DNA of 47,653 nucleotides from positions 1-47,653 of the forward strand of contig JAQBZB010000031.1 in assembly GCA_027622275.1 (NCBI GenBank), given 5' to 3'. A program made the position numbers and the translations under genes. This document shows, one piece after another, positions 39,147-45,931 of the stretch. Origin of the DNA: Planctomycetota bacterium (GTDB taxonomy: Bacteria > Planctomycetota > Planctomycetia > Pirellulales > Pirellulaceae). A model generated the notes under the pieces. The model did not search any database and was not told the origin of the DNA. It saw only the letters and a list, made by a program, of their open reading frames with translations. The first letter of the stretch is position 1, and every line of letters starts with the position of its first letter.

Positions 39147-39340
39147 GTCGCGCGAATTCTCCTGAAATCGAGCCCTGAAAGCAATATCAAAGAAGCGCCC
39201 TGCGCGAGTCGCAGGTAAGCGATTGGCACGAGACCCCAAGGGCGGTGCCGGAGCCCCTTTGAAGGACAATGTCAAAGATTCAGTGGAATTTGGTTGCCGC
39301 GGGCGGCAGTATCTAATAGATTGGCAAGTCTTGATGCGTC

Positions 39341-39376
39341 GCCAAGTGTGTACTTGGCGGCTTTCCTTTTCTTCTC
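39341..39376 (+). promoter_or_regulatory. Terminator-like hairpin in the leader of the selenoprotein gene
   Basis: GCCAAGT-GTGT-ACTTGGC is a perfect 7-pair stem with a 4-base loop, followed by GGCTTTCCTTTTCTTCTC. It lies directly before the AGGAG ribosome site of the selenoprotein gene. There is no plus-strand gene upstream that would need a terminator, so it may act as a leader attenuator or mRNA-stabilising element. This is inference. Confidence 0.45.
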
Positions 39377-39389
39377 AGGAGAAACGTCG

Positions 39390-39944
39390 ATGAGAACAAT
39401 GTTGGTCCCCTCGATCGCGATCGTGGCGCTGAGTTTCAGTGCCTTGGCCGTGGCGGCGGACTTGGAGTCTGGCTTGCAGGTCGGCGACAAAGCCGGCTAC
39501 TTCGAAGTCAAAGACTGCACAGGCCCGTCCGCCGGTAAGTCGCTCTGCTATCGCTGAAAGTTCGGCGCTCGTCCGGTAGCGAACGTGTTTGCACGTACGC
39601 TCGACGACAACTTGGCCAGTTTGGTCAAGCAGCTCGACAAGCAAGTAGCAGCGAATGAGTCGAAGAAGATGGCAGGCTTCGTTGTCTTGCTAACCGAAGA
39701 TCCAGATGCCGCCGAAAGCGAATTGAAAGCCTTCGCCGAAAAGCACGGGATCAAGAACATTCCATTGACGATCTTTGACGGCTCCGCGGGGCCCGAAAGC
39801 TATAAGATCGCCAAGGGCGCGGATGTCACGGTGAACCTGTGGGTTGGCCTAGAATCGAAAGCGAACTTCGCTTTCGCAAAAGGCAAACTCACCAAGGACA
39901 GCATCGCGGCGATCGTCGCCGACACATCGAAGATCTTAGAATAG
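39390..39944 (+). CDS. Candidate exported thioredoxin-fold selenoprotein (CxxU)
   Basis: One frame from ATG 39390 to TAG 39942-39944 is interrupted only by TGA at 39555-39557 (codon 56). Read through as selenocysteine, it gives a 184-residue protein: signal peptide (1-23), then [22 protein letters not shown], so Cys53 and Sec56 make a C-x-x-U redox motif. A thioredoxin/peroxiredoxin-like domain follows (AGFVVLLTEDPDAAESELKAF, IPLTIFDGSAGPESYKIA). I recall planctomycete homologues with CYRC at this point, which would make the UGA a true Cys-to-Sec replacement. CAGGAG precedes the ATG and a strong terminator follows. The downstream half shows no decay. An intact tRNA-Sec is in the same window. 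Likely role: periplasmic thiol or peroxide redox. Annotation pipelines would split or truncate it. Confidence 0.85.
39555..39584 (+). promoter_or_regulatory. Putative bacterial SECIS stem-loop
   Basis: Immediately after the UGA, GTTCG (39560-39564) pairs with CGAAC (39580-39584). Inside, a three-base bulge and CT/AG pairs lead to the apical loop CGTCCGGT, which contains the GGU typical of SelB-binding loops. Position and size fit a bacterial SECIS, which must lie just 3' of the UGA within the coding region. The fold was done by hand. Confidence 0.5.
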
Positions 39945-39976
39945 CCTGATGGCGAGTTCATAAGTAATCGAAACTG

Positions 39977-40017
39977 GGCCCGCTTCAATTTGAAGCGGGC
40001 CTTTCTCGTCTTTCTGG
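39977..40017 (+). terminator. Rho-independent terminator after the selenoprotein gene
   Basis: GGCCCGCTTC-AATTT-GAAGCGGGCC, a perfect 10-pair stem, is followed by TTTCTCGTCTTTCT. It lies 32 bases after the TAG stop, which supports the long reading of the gene through the TGA. Confidence 0.9.
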
Positions 40018-40034
40018 GACCTGGGATCGACATC

Positions 40035-41918
40035 ATGACCAACGGGCAACGCAACCACCACTCGCGCGGCGTTCGACTCGTCGCCGCCGTCACCAGCCTC
40101 CTCGCCTTCTCGGCGAGTCTCCCGTCGCCCGTCGTCGCGGGCACGTCGAACAGCTTGATGGACATCTCGGCGGATGGAAAGCTGTTGGCGTGCTCGAATC
40201 GAGACAGCGGGACGGTCACGATCGTCGATCTGGCGTCTCACACGAAGCTGCACGAAGTTGCCGTCGGAACGAAGCCCGAAGGCGTCACGTTTCTCGGCGA
40301 CGGCCACCGGTTCGCGGTTGCCGTGTATGGCGATGATTGCATCGTCTGTCTGGACGGCGATTCCGGCGAAGCGTTCGGCCGCTGCGACGTGTTCGATGAA
40401 CCTTACGGCATCGTGAGCGATCCGTCCGGCAAGCGGCTCTATGTGACTCTCGACTATCCCGGCCAGTTGCTGACGATCGATGTCGCCTCGCTCCAAGTCA
40501 CCCAAACATTCCAAGGAAACAACTTCTTGCGCGGCATCGCGTTGTCGCCCAGCGAAGGCCGCGCGTATCTCGCCGAGTACTACACCAGCAAAGTGCTTGC
40601 CGTTGATCTGGCGAAAGGAATTGTCGCGGACGAGTGGACTGGATCGAGCACGGATAATCTGGCGCGGCAGCTGGTGTTGAGCCCTCGTCGTGCCAAAGTC
40701 TACGTCCCACACATGCGTTCGCGCGTCACGGCCATTCATGGCGAAGGATCGATCTTTCCGTACTTGTCGGTGATCGACACGCCGGTCGGTGAGGACTTGC
40801 GTCGCAAACGCATACCGCTGGATTCGTTCGCGAGCAGTCGCATAACATCCAATCCTTGGGAAGTCGCGGTGACGCCCGATGGGCGAGGCCTGTATGTCGT
40901 CTTCGCCGGAACCGACGACATGTTCGCCTGTGAGATCCTCGACGACGACTATCGCGAAATCGCCGCGCGAAAGCTGATCGAAGTCGGCGCTAATCCTCGC
41001 GCCGTGCGAGTCGCACCGAACGGCGAAACGGTTTACGTCTACAACGCGCTGGGCTTCAATGTCGTTGGCTACGACACGGCCAAGCTCGTACCGATCGCGA
41101 ACATCCAAGTCACCGACAATCCGCTCGGCGATCAGGTGCTGCAAGGAAAGAAGCTGTTCTATTCGGCGCTTCAGCCAATGGTCGGACGGCGGTGGATCTC
41201 TTGTTCGAGCTGCCACCCCGACGGCGATCCCGATGGCCGAACCTGGCACAACCCCGAAGGTCTGCGGAACACGCAATCGTTTGCCGGCATGGCCTGGACG
41301 CATCCGATCCACTGGTCTGCCGACCGCGACGAAGTCCAGGATTTCGAACACACCATACGCGGATCGCTGATGCAAGGCCGCGGCTTGATTCGCGGCGCTG
41401 TTCGTGAATCCCTCGGCGAACCCAACGCGGGCCTTTCGGAAACACTTGATGCGTTAGCGGCTTATTCGAACTCGCACAAGTTTCCGCTCAGCCCGTACGC
41501 CAAAGACGGACTCAGCGACGCGGCCAAGCGCGGGCGGGAGGTTTTCTTCGCCGAGGCAACGCAGTGCGCGACCTGTCACTCGGGTCCGTTCTTCTGCGAC
41601 TCGCAGCCCCGCGCCGCAAGCCAGATCGTGCGCCATGATGTCGGCACCGGCGAAGACGATCCGTCGGAGAAGATGGGACCGGCGTATGACACACCGACGT
41701 TGTTGGGAGTCTATCGCACTGCACCCTACCTGCATCACGGCAAGGCAGCGACGCTGGAAGACGTTCTGACAGCCTCGAACCACAGCGGTCGCCATGGGAA
41801 AACCAGTCATCTCACGTCGCAGCAAATCGCTGATTTGGTCGACTTTCTAAAGGCGTTGCCTTACGAAGATCCGGAGCCCAGTGCAAAGGCGGCGGGCTTA
41901 ACGAAGGTGGAAAGGTAG
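40035..41918 (+). CDS. Beta-propeller / dihaem cytochrome c fusion
   Basis: The 627-residue exported protein has a signal peptide (about 1-35), then a YVTN-type beta-propeller (about 40-360) with repeats such as MDISADGKLLACSNRDSGTVTIVD and ISPSGKRLYVT-like units. A C-terminal cytochrome c peroxidase/MauG-like region has haem sites CSSCH at residue 390 and CATCH at 511, and late segments typical of the family (DTPTLLGVYRTAPYLHHGKAATLEDVL). Likely a periplasmic redox enzyme with peroxidase-type or oxidative modification chemistry, substrate unknown. The start ATG 40035 was chosen because the longer frame begins inside the upstream terminator. It follows the selenoprotein gene but is separated from it by that terminator. 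Confidence 0.85.
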   Translation: MTNGQRNHHSRGVRLVAAVTSLLAFSASLPSPVVAGTSNSLMDISADGKLLACSNRDSGTVTIVDLASHTKLHEVAVGTKPEGVTFLGDGHRFAVAVYGDDCIVCLDGDSGEAFGRCDVFDEPYGIVSDPSGKRLYVTLDYPGQLLTIDVASLQVTQTFQGNNFLRGIALSPSEGRAYLAEYYTSKVLAVDLAKGIVADEWTGSSTDNLARQLVLSPRRAKVYVPHMRSRVTAIHGEGSIFPYLSVIDTPVGEDLRRKRIPLDSFASSRITSNPWEVAVTPDGRGLYVVFAGTDDMFACEILDDDYREIAARKLIEVGANPRAVRVAPNGETVYVYNALGFNVVGYDTAKLVPIANIQVTDNPLGDQVLQGKKLFYSALQPMVGRRWISCSSCHPDGDPDGRTWHNPEGLRNTQSFAGMAWTHPIHWSADRDEVQDFEHTIRGSLMQGRGLIRGAVRESLGEPNAGLSETLDALAAYSNSHKFPLSPYAKDGLSDAAKRGREVFFAEATQCATCHSGPFFCDSQPRAASQIVRHDVGTGEDDPSEKMGPAYDTPTLLGVYRTAPYLHHGKAATLEDVLTASNHSGRHGKTSHLTSQQIADLVDFLKALPYEDPEPSAKAAGLTKVER

Positions 41919-43843: not shown

Positions 43844-45931
43844 ATGGCACGGATGCGTTGGTTTATCACCTGTTTGATGGCAATTTGTTTTGCCTGCGAC
43901 TACTGCCAGACGGCCAGGGCGGAGGAACAGCCCAAGAACATTCTGCCTCCGTTTCCTTACGACTTGCTGGAGGTTGACCTAACGACCGCAGGCCGCTTCT
44001 GTGGCCCGGCTCGAACCGAGTTGGTAAGGCGACGGCTGATCACCGACGCCCCGTCGCCATCGGACGAACACTCCGGTCGGGCTCACGTTCATACGACAAA
44101 CGACAGCCACGTTCGTTCTGCGTCGAACGAACCACCACGCTCGGCGCAGGCCATCAGCATCCGCATCAGCGATGCCGCGACGCAACCCGATCAACAACAC
44201 GAGGCAGTTACCTTCGCAACCGACCAGGCACACGCCGACTGCTTCGATGGCGACCCGTTCCCGTCGGCCAAGAAGTGCCAAGCGTGCCATCCCGGACACT
44301 ATCGCGAATGGTCGGTCTCGGCACACGCGTACGCGCAGCTAAGTCCCGTCTTCAACACGATGTCCAACAGGTTGATTCAAGCCAACAATGGCACGTTGGG
44401 TGACTTCTGCATTCGCTGTCACACCCCGATCGGCATGGCATTAAACGAACCGATCGCGATGAGCAACATGGACCGGCATCCCGCGGCGCGGGAGGGCGTG
44501 ACCTGTGTTGTTTGCCATCGCATCAACCAGAACTGGGGAAAAGGTGCGGGGCGGCTGGCGCTCGTGGCTGGTGGATTGAACGCACCGATCTATGGCCCGA
44601 CAGGGAACCAGATCCTCGCCGAAGTACTGGCGGACCCTGATCGGTACGGTGTGATGAAGACCGATGATACGCCGACGTCCCGCGGCCGCGAGGTACATGC
44701 CGAAGTCGTGCCCTTCTTCGCGCTCACGACACCCTCGGTGTGCGGCTCGTGCCACGACGTGTTCGCCCCCAACGGCTTTCGACTGGAAGATGCGTTCAGC
44801 GAATTCAAGGCATCGCCTGCTGCTCGAAAGAAGTTTCTGAACTGCCAAGACTGCCACATGGGATTGTCGCCCGGCGAGGCATCCGGCTACGCGTTTGAAC
44901 CGGCTGCGAAGGTCGGAAACGTCTCGACGACGCCGCGTAAGCGAACGAACCACATGATCGCTGGTCCCGACTATTCGATCATTCACCCTGGTCTCTTCCC
45001 GCATAATCCCAATGCCGTTCGAGAAGAGCACGCCGAATTCGCGGGCGACCTGGAACCCGGTTTGGCCACGATGCGGGAGTGGCTGCAGTTTGACTACCGC
45101 GCCGGATGGGGAACTGAGCAGTTCGAGCGTAATCTGCCGGATGGTTATTCATTCCCAGCCGCTTGGGAGAGTCAGGCCCGGCGTTTTCGCGCCGCGGACG
45201 TGCTGCGAGAACAATTCGATCTGCTGAACGAAGCGGCGCAGGCGCGGCATCAGGTACTGAGTGCTGGCTACAAGCTGGGCGACATCGTTCAGGATCGGGC
45301 GGGTCATGACGGAATCCGCTTCCGAGTGAATGTTTACAACGGCACGGACGGGCATAGCGTGCCGACCGGCTTTGACGCCGAACGGCTCGTATTTCTGCGG
45401 GTCACGGTGTGGGATCGAAACGGGCAACTCGTCTTCGTGTCGGGCGACCTCGACCCCAATGGCGATGTCCGCGACAGCCATTCGCTGTACGTCCACAACG
45501 GCGAACTGCCGCTGGACCGGCAACTGTTTTCGCTGCAAACGCGGTTCCTGACCCGCAACATTCGAGGCGGCGAACGCGAGCAGATCGTGCCGGTTCCCTA
45601 CTCGCTCGACCCGCTTCCTTACACCCGCCCCGAGACACGTCCGTTCACGGTCCTCGGGCGGCCCGTAGGTGCCCGGAAACACAAACAGAGCATCGAAGTC
45701 AACGGCCAACGCTGGGCGAGATACCACATCGACCCGTCGCAGTTGACTTGTCACGGACCGTACTCCGCGCACGTCGATCTCGTTGCCGGGATGGTGCCGA
45801 TCAACCTGATCCACTTCATCGAGACCGTCGGATTCGACTACGACATGTCGGCTCGTGAAGTTGCGGACGCGATCGTCGAGGGTCACATGGTTGTGCATTC
45901 GGCTTCAACCACGTTTCACGTTGACGAGTAA
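43844..45931 (+). CDS. Exported pentahaem cytochrome c (c554-like)
   Basis: The 695-residue protein starts with a signal peptide (MARMRWFITCLMAICFACDYC..., cleavage likely after ARA). Five CxxCH haem sites are at residues 145 (CQACH), 189 (CIRCH), 221 (CVVCH), 300 (CGSCH) and 334 (CQDCH). Extra histidines for axial ligation (HYREWSVSAHAYAQ) match the cytochrome c554 family. A C-terminal beta-rich region follows from about residue 480 (RFRVNVYNGTDGHSVPTGF). Haem order and local motifs match those in 25067-27916, so the two are paralogous. The next gene encodes an outer-membrane beta-barrel, suggesting an envelope electron-transfer role (inference). Confidence 0.9.
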   Translation: MARMRWFITCLMAICFACDYCQTARAEEQPKNILPPFPYDLLEVDLTTAGRFCGPARTELVRRRLITDAPSPSDEHSGRAHVHTTNDSHVRSASNEPPRSAQAISIRISDAATQPDQQHEAVTFATDQAHADCFDGDPFPSAKKCQACHPGHYREWSVSAHAYAQLSPVFNTMSNRLIQANNGTLGDFCIRCHTPIGMALNEPIAMSNMDRHPAAREGVTCVVCHRINQNWGKGAGRLALVAGGLNAPIYGPTGNQILAEVLADPDRYGVMKTDDTPTSRGREVHAEVVPFFALTTPSVCGSCHDVFAPNGFRLEDAFSEFKASPAARKKFLNCQDCHMGLSPGEASGYAFEPAAKVGNVSTTPRKRTNHMIAGPDYSIIHPGLFPHNPNAVREEHAEFAGDLEPGLATMREWLQFDYRAGWGTEQFERNLPDGYSFPAAWESQARRFRAADVLREQFDLLNEAAQARHQVLSAGYKLGDIVQDRAGHDGIRFRVNVYNGTDGHSVPTGFDAERLVFLRVTVWDRNGQLVFVSGDLDPNGDVRDSHSLYVHNGELPLDRQLFSLQTRFLTRNIRGGEREQIVPVPYSLDPLPYTRPETRPFTVLGRPVGARKHKQSIEVNGQRWARYHIDPSQLTCHGPYSAHVDLVAGMVPINLIHFIETVGFDYDMSAREVADAIVEGHMVVHSASTTFHVDE

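Follow-up and report, generated by a model that had tools for sequence, protein, structure and literature searches.

The window, by which we mean the whole stretch of DNA analysed, is one complete contig (C145, 47,653 bases); the genome to which it belongs measures 9.78 Mb and is spread over 555 contigs (completeness 96.2%, contamination 4.05%). On its forward strand, positions 39390-39944 hold a gene whose translation, homologues and fold model point to a CxxU selenoprotein with a thioredoxin fold, predicted to be exported and 184 amino acids long with Sec56. The frame of 184 codons starts with ATG at 39390, ends with TAG at 39942-39944 and contains one in-frame stop only, the TGA at codon 56 (39555-39557), which would be read as selenocysteine in the motif C53-Y-R-U56; the Cys53 codon is TGC at 39546-39548. 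A ribosome-binding site, AGGAGA at 39377-39382, lies 7 nucleotides (nts) 5′ of the ATG, and about 22 residues at the start of the product (1-22) resemble a signal peptide, so that the product is apparently exported. The initial annotation had described a clean frame with a single TGA, a ribosome site, a signal peptide and a terminator. The frame and the ribosome site stand as described and the signal peptide is seen by inspection, while the terminator, a 12-bp hairpin followed by a T-rich stretch at 39976-40002 (+), folds with z -6.3 but is not among the entries of a simple terminator scan. Downstream of the TGA we placed a candidate SECIS hairpin at 39569-39607 (+, -16.5 kcal/mol), whose apical loop (39588-39591) lies 30 nts after the TGA.

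The conserved 3′ neighbour on the same strand, at 40035-41918, is an apparently exported beta-propeller dihaem cytochrome c, recognised from profile matches, in which the beta-propeller is followed by two CxxCH motifs (CSSCH and CATCH). The terminator-like hairpin between the two genes counts against assuming co-transcription. The tRNA-Sec that had been noted in the same window was recovered at 1613-1712 on the reverse strand (anticodon TCA) by ARAGORN and by Rfam RF01852 (67 bits at 1617-1712). Elsewhere in the window, a terminator-like leader hairpin with 10 pairs and a T-rich tail lies at 39338-39361 (+), 28 nts before the start codon of the selenoprotein gene, and the protein encoded at 43844-45931 contains five CxxCH haem sites (Cytochrome_C554) and weakly matches the NCBIfam model of a UshA-like (seleno)protein.

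The column of the TGA in homologues

Among 196 genomes, comprising the own genome and related ones, 138 had a match to the family at E 0.001. We determined the residues aligned with Cys53 and with codon 56 in 111 homologous loci, a non-random set that includes two loci of the own genome (L001 and L002), 45 of the 46 TGA places listed and only part of the TGA-free places, and that counts near-identical copies of G007 and G072 (L019/L020 and L043/L044) separately. The pair was C/U in 44 loci, C/C in 65, R/U in one and D/T in one, the last being a distant paralogue with neither Cys nor Sec. The codon at the second column of the 110 loci with Sec or Cys was TGA in 45, TGC in 60 and TGT in 5. Among the matches listed, 46 places had an in-frame TGA, and in all 45 that were analysed it stood at the codon-56 column; the 46th (G072:C97) is a copy and was not included. 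Homologues thus align across the TGA and, that one paralogue aside, carry Cys or Sec at its column, in agreement with the earlier view that the TGA falls in a Cys-x-x-Cys-like motif with Cys in relatives. The Cys of homologues at this column led us to reject a reading of the TGA as Trp.

Across the phylum, 59 of 392 genomes searched had a family match at E 1e-6. All 20 further TGA places found were at the codon-56 column, each after a Cys, and ten other copies had Cys (9) or Ser (1) there. The nine Cys copies were the best-scoring loci, and all but one of the other 21 copies were chosen for their listed TGA, so that the 20 TGA copies in 30 do not represent a frequency. In an alignment of 64 of the 111 loci, made apart from the phylum set and hereafter called A1, the invariant columns were G45, C53, C/U56 and P62. 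A tree built by a quick method without the Sec column (110 rows, L002 omitted) required at least seven changes between Sec and Cys by parsimony, four of them forced by starred branches, and the Sec and Cys copies of G060 were sisters. A scan of contigs with the single protein returned three loci, with one relative at 83% identity, and tblastn against a plasmid collection gave no match.

Some individual loci are unusual. In L066 (G002:C11), a paralogue with TGA at the Sec column, Arg replaces the first Cys (RYYU), and L211 (G239:C214) is a tandem pair of family genes with TGA at the Sec column in both. L062 (G002:C75), a member of the Cys type, has a TAG in frame outside the motif; it lies next to a cytochrome copy with an internal TGA and TAA and to a UxxC TlpA-like gene, and this cluster is perhaps decaying or misassembled.

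The initial annotation had also stated that the sequence remains family-like after the TGA. This was borne out, as the sequence 3′ of the TGA is under purifying selection: dN/dS was 0.03-0.26 in 12 of 13 close pairs, and dS was saturated in the remaining pair.

Selenocysteine machinery and the RNA after the TGA

The presence of selA, selB and selD, which had been proposed as a check, was confirmed in the own genome: contig C170 carries both selA and selB (567.8 and 344 bits), and C340 carries selD (276.5 bits). The selD (L185, G000:C340) forms the C-terminal part of a long frame, with Cys in its active-site loop (CAGCGGK), and the N-terminal part resembles an FAD-dependent dehydrogenase by inspection. 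SelB was over the cut-off in 93 of the 196 genomes and tRNA-Sec reached at least 60 bits in 94 of the 196; this line was set by hand, as were the genome lists, and was chosen because 141 genomes pass the gathering score. Among the matches listed and for the analysed loci, 39 of the 40 genomes that carry a TGA copy had SelB or tRNA-Sec, versus 13 of 52 with Cys copies only (Fisher p 1.4e-13, kinship of the genomes ignored). Conversely, of 97 genomes with neither SelB nor tRNA-Sec, one (G102) has a TGA copy among the matches listed. G102 is 91% complete, yet has neither SelB over the cut-off nor tRNA-Sec at 60 bits, and either missing sequence or recent loss would explain the exception.

The own genome has six further redoxin-type genes (G000 C190, C335, C338, C369, C494 and C261; L178-L183) that carry TGA in frame at apparent catalytic Cys sites, e.g. 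DWUPFC and HWUGPC, and TGA is therefore probably read as Sec in several redox proteins of the organism. The gene on C369 contains two TGA codons (EFULTUR). Four glutathione-peroxidase-type matches in the own genome, one of them over the cut-off, had no in-frame stop.

When the RNA from +18 to +48 after the TGA was compared with synonymous recodings, the mean z was -1.60 for 44 Sec genes and -0.44 for 65 Cys genes (one-sided p 5.8e-7, kinship of the genes ignored; L066 was omitted from the RNA tests). Among eight other intervals, 0 to 48 (p 0.00029) and 21 to 69 (p 0.0021) also differed, both overlapping with +18 to +48, and +180 to +228 was weakly lower in Sec genes (p 0.02); the relation was reversed at +60 to +108 (Sec 0.18, Cys -0.57). 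The hairpin at 39569-39607 itself gave a z of only -1.47 against dinucleotide shuffles. With a 6-nt loop, the gene in the window falls within the published bSECIS limits (PMC13188914, section 5), but these limits also admit 48 of 65 Cys genes, compared with 25 of 44 Sec genes, and are therefore non-discriminating. Without the loop-G rule, the hairpins of Sec genes were more stable (medians -18.05 versus -13.0, p 5.5e-7).

On gapless columns, RNAalifold detected no helix between +15 and +51, whether in the close set, the all-Sec set or the Cys set; what it did return was one weak 3-bp helix outside this region, in the close set. The base pairs of the structure in the window gene were kept at 65% in 16 close relatives (slid controls 19-51%), at 54% in the 44 Sec genes (controls 30-46%) and at 42% in the Cys genes (35-45%), figures that are no more than suggestive. 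An Rfam search on the gene gave nothing above the gathering score. Judged from sequence, the hairpin downstream of the TGA is a likely but putative SECIS element. Considering conservation, machinery, selection and RNA structure together, the gene with TGA at codon 56 very probably encodes a real selenoprotein.

Fold, family identity and neighbouring genes

The predicted model of the protein (pLDDT 92.1, pTM 0.84) has a thioredoxin-like fold. Foldseek gave E 3.9e-8 with 4nmu and VIA gave Z 17.0 with 3gl3 (rmsd 2.2, 139 aligned), and the fold neighbours from Foldseek and VIA-align were ResA, a putative DsbE, Tpx and peroxiredoxins. In thioredoxin-type proteins the first core strand is followed by the first core helix, whose start holds the catalytic Cys pair. 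According to DSSP of the model, CxxU 53-56 is located at a short helix (54-58) directly ahead of strand 62-68. In a control model of the TlpA-like neighbour of L056 (12 sequences, pLDDT 82.5), on the other hand, CIPC 97-100 follows strand 87-93. In DSSP of these two predicted models, the family's redox pair thus precedes the first core strand and that of the modelled neighbour follows it, and no Cys pair was found at the position usual for TlpA, ResA, AhpC-TSA and Redoxin. The CxxU motif would therefore be distant from the usual thioredoxin active site, a displacement that the initial annotation overlooked, as it did the gene neighbourhood. The family resembles the TlpA/ResA/CcmG-type oxidoreductases (PF08534/PF00578) in the overall fold of the model, in apparent export and in having two residues between the redox pair.

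Sequence profiles assigned the protein to no family of Pfam, NCBIfam or PHROG and to no PDB sequence; its best Pfam matches, ClpB_D2-small and DUF3291 (E about 0.02), were under the cut-offs. For the 64 members, the best E was 0.0053 in Pfam and 0.0052 in NCBIfam, both with unrelated families, and the family alignment did no better. Neither the protein nor the 64 members belonged to TlpA, ResA, AhpC-TSA or Redoxin by profile: the protein had no Redoxin or AhpC/TSA match, and one of the 64 members showed Redoxin, at E 0.086. When hhalign was used to align the family profile with a TlpA domain of the own genome, the result was uninformative (probability 2.9). The selenoprotein families of Table 1 of PMC13188914 that have NCBIfam or Pfam models were not matched by these 64 of the 111 loci, the sole listed model to appear being deiodinase_rel (E 0.076, one member).

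In the accessible part of the catalogue of 119 families (PMC13188914), no entry was recognisable as the CxxU family. The CxxU selenoproteins given there (SELENOW-like, AhpD-like, GrdA, Trx7/PDZ, Prx-SUH, an FCYXU-type TonB receptor and others) share with it Cys-x-x-Sec and Cys homologues, and the context of the TonB-receptor entry (FCYxU-like) recurs in the member L061 (FCYTU), but they differ by profile, as the best NCBIfam E of 0.0052 among the 64 members indicates. The planctomycete selenoproteins P1 and P2, for which the accessible part of PMC4807772 names formate dehydrogenase and formylmethanofuran dehydrogenase, come from the same phylum with Sec machinery present; the family differs from them by these named enzymes and may be some entry in table S9 of that work. 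Literature searches found no description of the family, and motif strings occurred only accidentally, in a text on eels. The claim that the selenoprotein is undescribed therefore held within these tests of family matches, catalogue and literature, and by sequence the family is apparently new, GOS_A (PMC2398784) and table S9 of PMC4807772 lying outside the comparison.

The cytochrome shares its beta-propeller and two CxxCH motifs with hydrazine synthase beta-gamma and MauG- or MbnH-like dihaem proteins. It scored 88.4 bits against the NCBIfam model of hydrazine synthase beta-gamma (cut-off 1250), so that it is not a member by that test, and its matches to NCBIfam dihaem-protein models were far under the cut-offs. 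We examined 76 distinct family loci, on stretches that differed in length, and found the cytochrome at 21 of them, a TlpA-like gene at 22 and both at seven. Six of the 76, with less than 1 kb of flank and no match, were left unscored, while L031 and L065 were kept despite short flanks as each had a match; among the 70 scored loci, 36 have the cytochrome, the TlpA-like gene or both nearby and 34 have neither. In 12 genomes, 12 of 16 cytochrome places (E 1e-30) adjoin a family gene; these genomes, and the 11 used in a second search, were chosen mostly as carriers of the family. At E 1e-30 the cytochrome is single-copy in the own genome.

The TlpA-like neighbour resembles a lipoprotein thioredoxin, typically with W-S-T-x-C-x-P-C (12 sequences). 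The first residue of the motif was Cys in 17 of 22 such neighbours and TGA in 5, and by sequence these five are apparent UxxC selenoproteins (e.g. LWASW-U-SSC); they lie at offsets 2507 (-) of L062, 8124 of L169, 7693 (-) of L171, 7806 (-) of L172 and 8265 of L189, strand as read. The TlpA-like relative of the own genome lies elsewhere (C247) and has no TGA. An apparent preference of the partner genes for Sec over Cys loci (29 of 40 versus 5 of 28 with 1-kb flanks) was not kept, because three more TGA-free loci (G050:C51, G063:C389 and G114:C6) adjoin the cytochrome.

Possible role of the CxxU protein

The explanation that we strongly favour overall is an exported thioredoxin-fold thiol/selenol oxidoreductase containing Sec56. 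In the mechanism proposed, SelA, SelB, SelD and tRNA-Sec would insert selenocysteine at TGA codon 56 with the assistance of the RNA hairpin about 12-50 nts after the TGA. The exported product would present a thioredoxin-like domain with Cys53/Sec56 as its only invariant chemistry, in a short helix just ahead of the first core strand. The pair would most likely cycle between selenol/thiol and selenenylsulfide as an extracytoplasmic thiol-disulfide oxidoreductase, and redox catalysis by the CxxU protein is, in our estimate, highly probable. The TlpA-like lipoprotein thioredoxin would be the probable electron donor and the beta-propeller dihaem cytochrome the probable client or acceptor; these roles, and the direction of electron flow that they imply, are tentative. 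A relay of the CxxU protein with both partners, suggested by gene linkage, is an appreciable possibility.

A stop inside the frame, like the stray TAG in the relative L062, has the look of a pseudogene in which the TGA is a plain nonsense mutation or sequencing error. However, 45 of 111 loci and 20 of 20 other TGA places of the phylum have the TGA at one and the same column, dN/dS past it is 0.03-0.26 in 12 of 13 pairs, and TGA copies go with SelB or tRNA-Sec, so that we consider this origin extremely improbable. The exchange of TGA and Cys at one column, the machinery and the selection favour Sec insertion over random nonsense mutation, as the initial annotation had argued. A role as peroxidase, in which Sec56 of a peroxiredoxin relative removes peroxides independently of the cytochrome, would suit the peroxiredoxins and Tpx among the fold neighbours, but no Cys or Sec is conserved after the first strand, where peroxiredoxins usually have it, the protein has no Redoxin or AhpC-TSA match, and Redoxin reached only E 0.086 in one of 64 members; we give this role little credence.

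Sco proteins have a thioredoxin fold and deliver metal. A thioredoxin-type enzyme would not usually have its motif at this place, so that binding of a metal or a structural role is possible, and the CxxU pair might bind and deliver a metal such as copper in a Sco-like manner instead of exchanging disulfides. The adjoining haem protein and the modelled distance of the motif from the usual active site are in favour of this, but His is absent from the invariant and nearly invariant columns of A1, a TlpA-like redox protein is encoded near the family gene in 22 of 76 loci, and Sec is typical of redox sites (PMC13188914, section 7), which makes metal delivery improbable. ResA and a putative DsbE are among the best fold matches, and the adjacent cytochrome carries two CxxCH sites and occurs only once in the own genome at E 1e-30. 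ResA and CcmG reduce the cysteines of CxxCH ahead of haem attachment, and the CxxU protein could be such a dedicated reductant with the cytochrome as its one client; since the cytochrome occurs in only 21 of 76 loci and the motif position of ResA is not kept, this narrower role is unlikely, if less so than metal delivery or peroxide removal.

The oxidoreductase reading can be extended to an extracytoplasmic selenium module of Planctomycetota, in which the CxxU protein would pass electrons between a UxxC or CxxC TlpA-like lipoprotein and the dihaem cytochrome, in some cases with two selenoproteins in series; we regard this as speculative and somewhat unlikely. The family itself, which occurs in several lineages of a single phylum, appears to be absent from the selenoprotein families described so far; standard translation, in which TGA is a stop, splits such proteins in two. 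The redox pair of the family would occupy an unexpected site within a fold that is very common. The linkage of the CxxU protein with a dihaem cytochrome and, at some loci, with an apparent UxxC selenoprotein offers a testable pathway for why these planctomycetes keep selenium.
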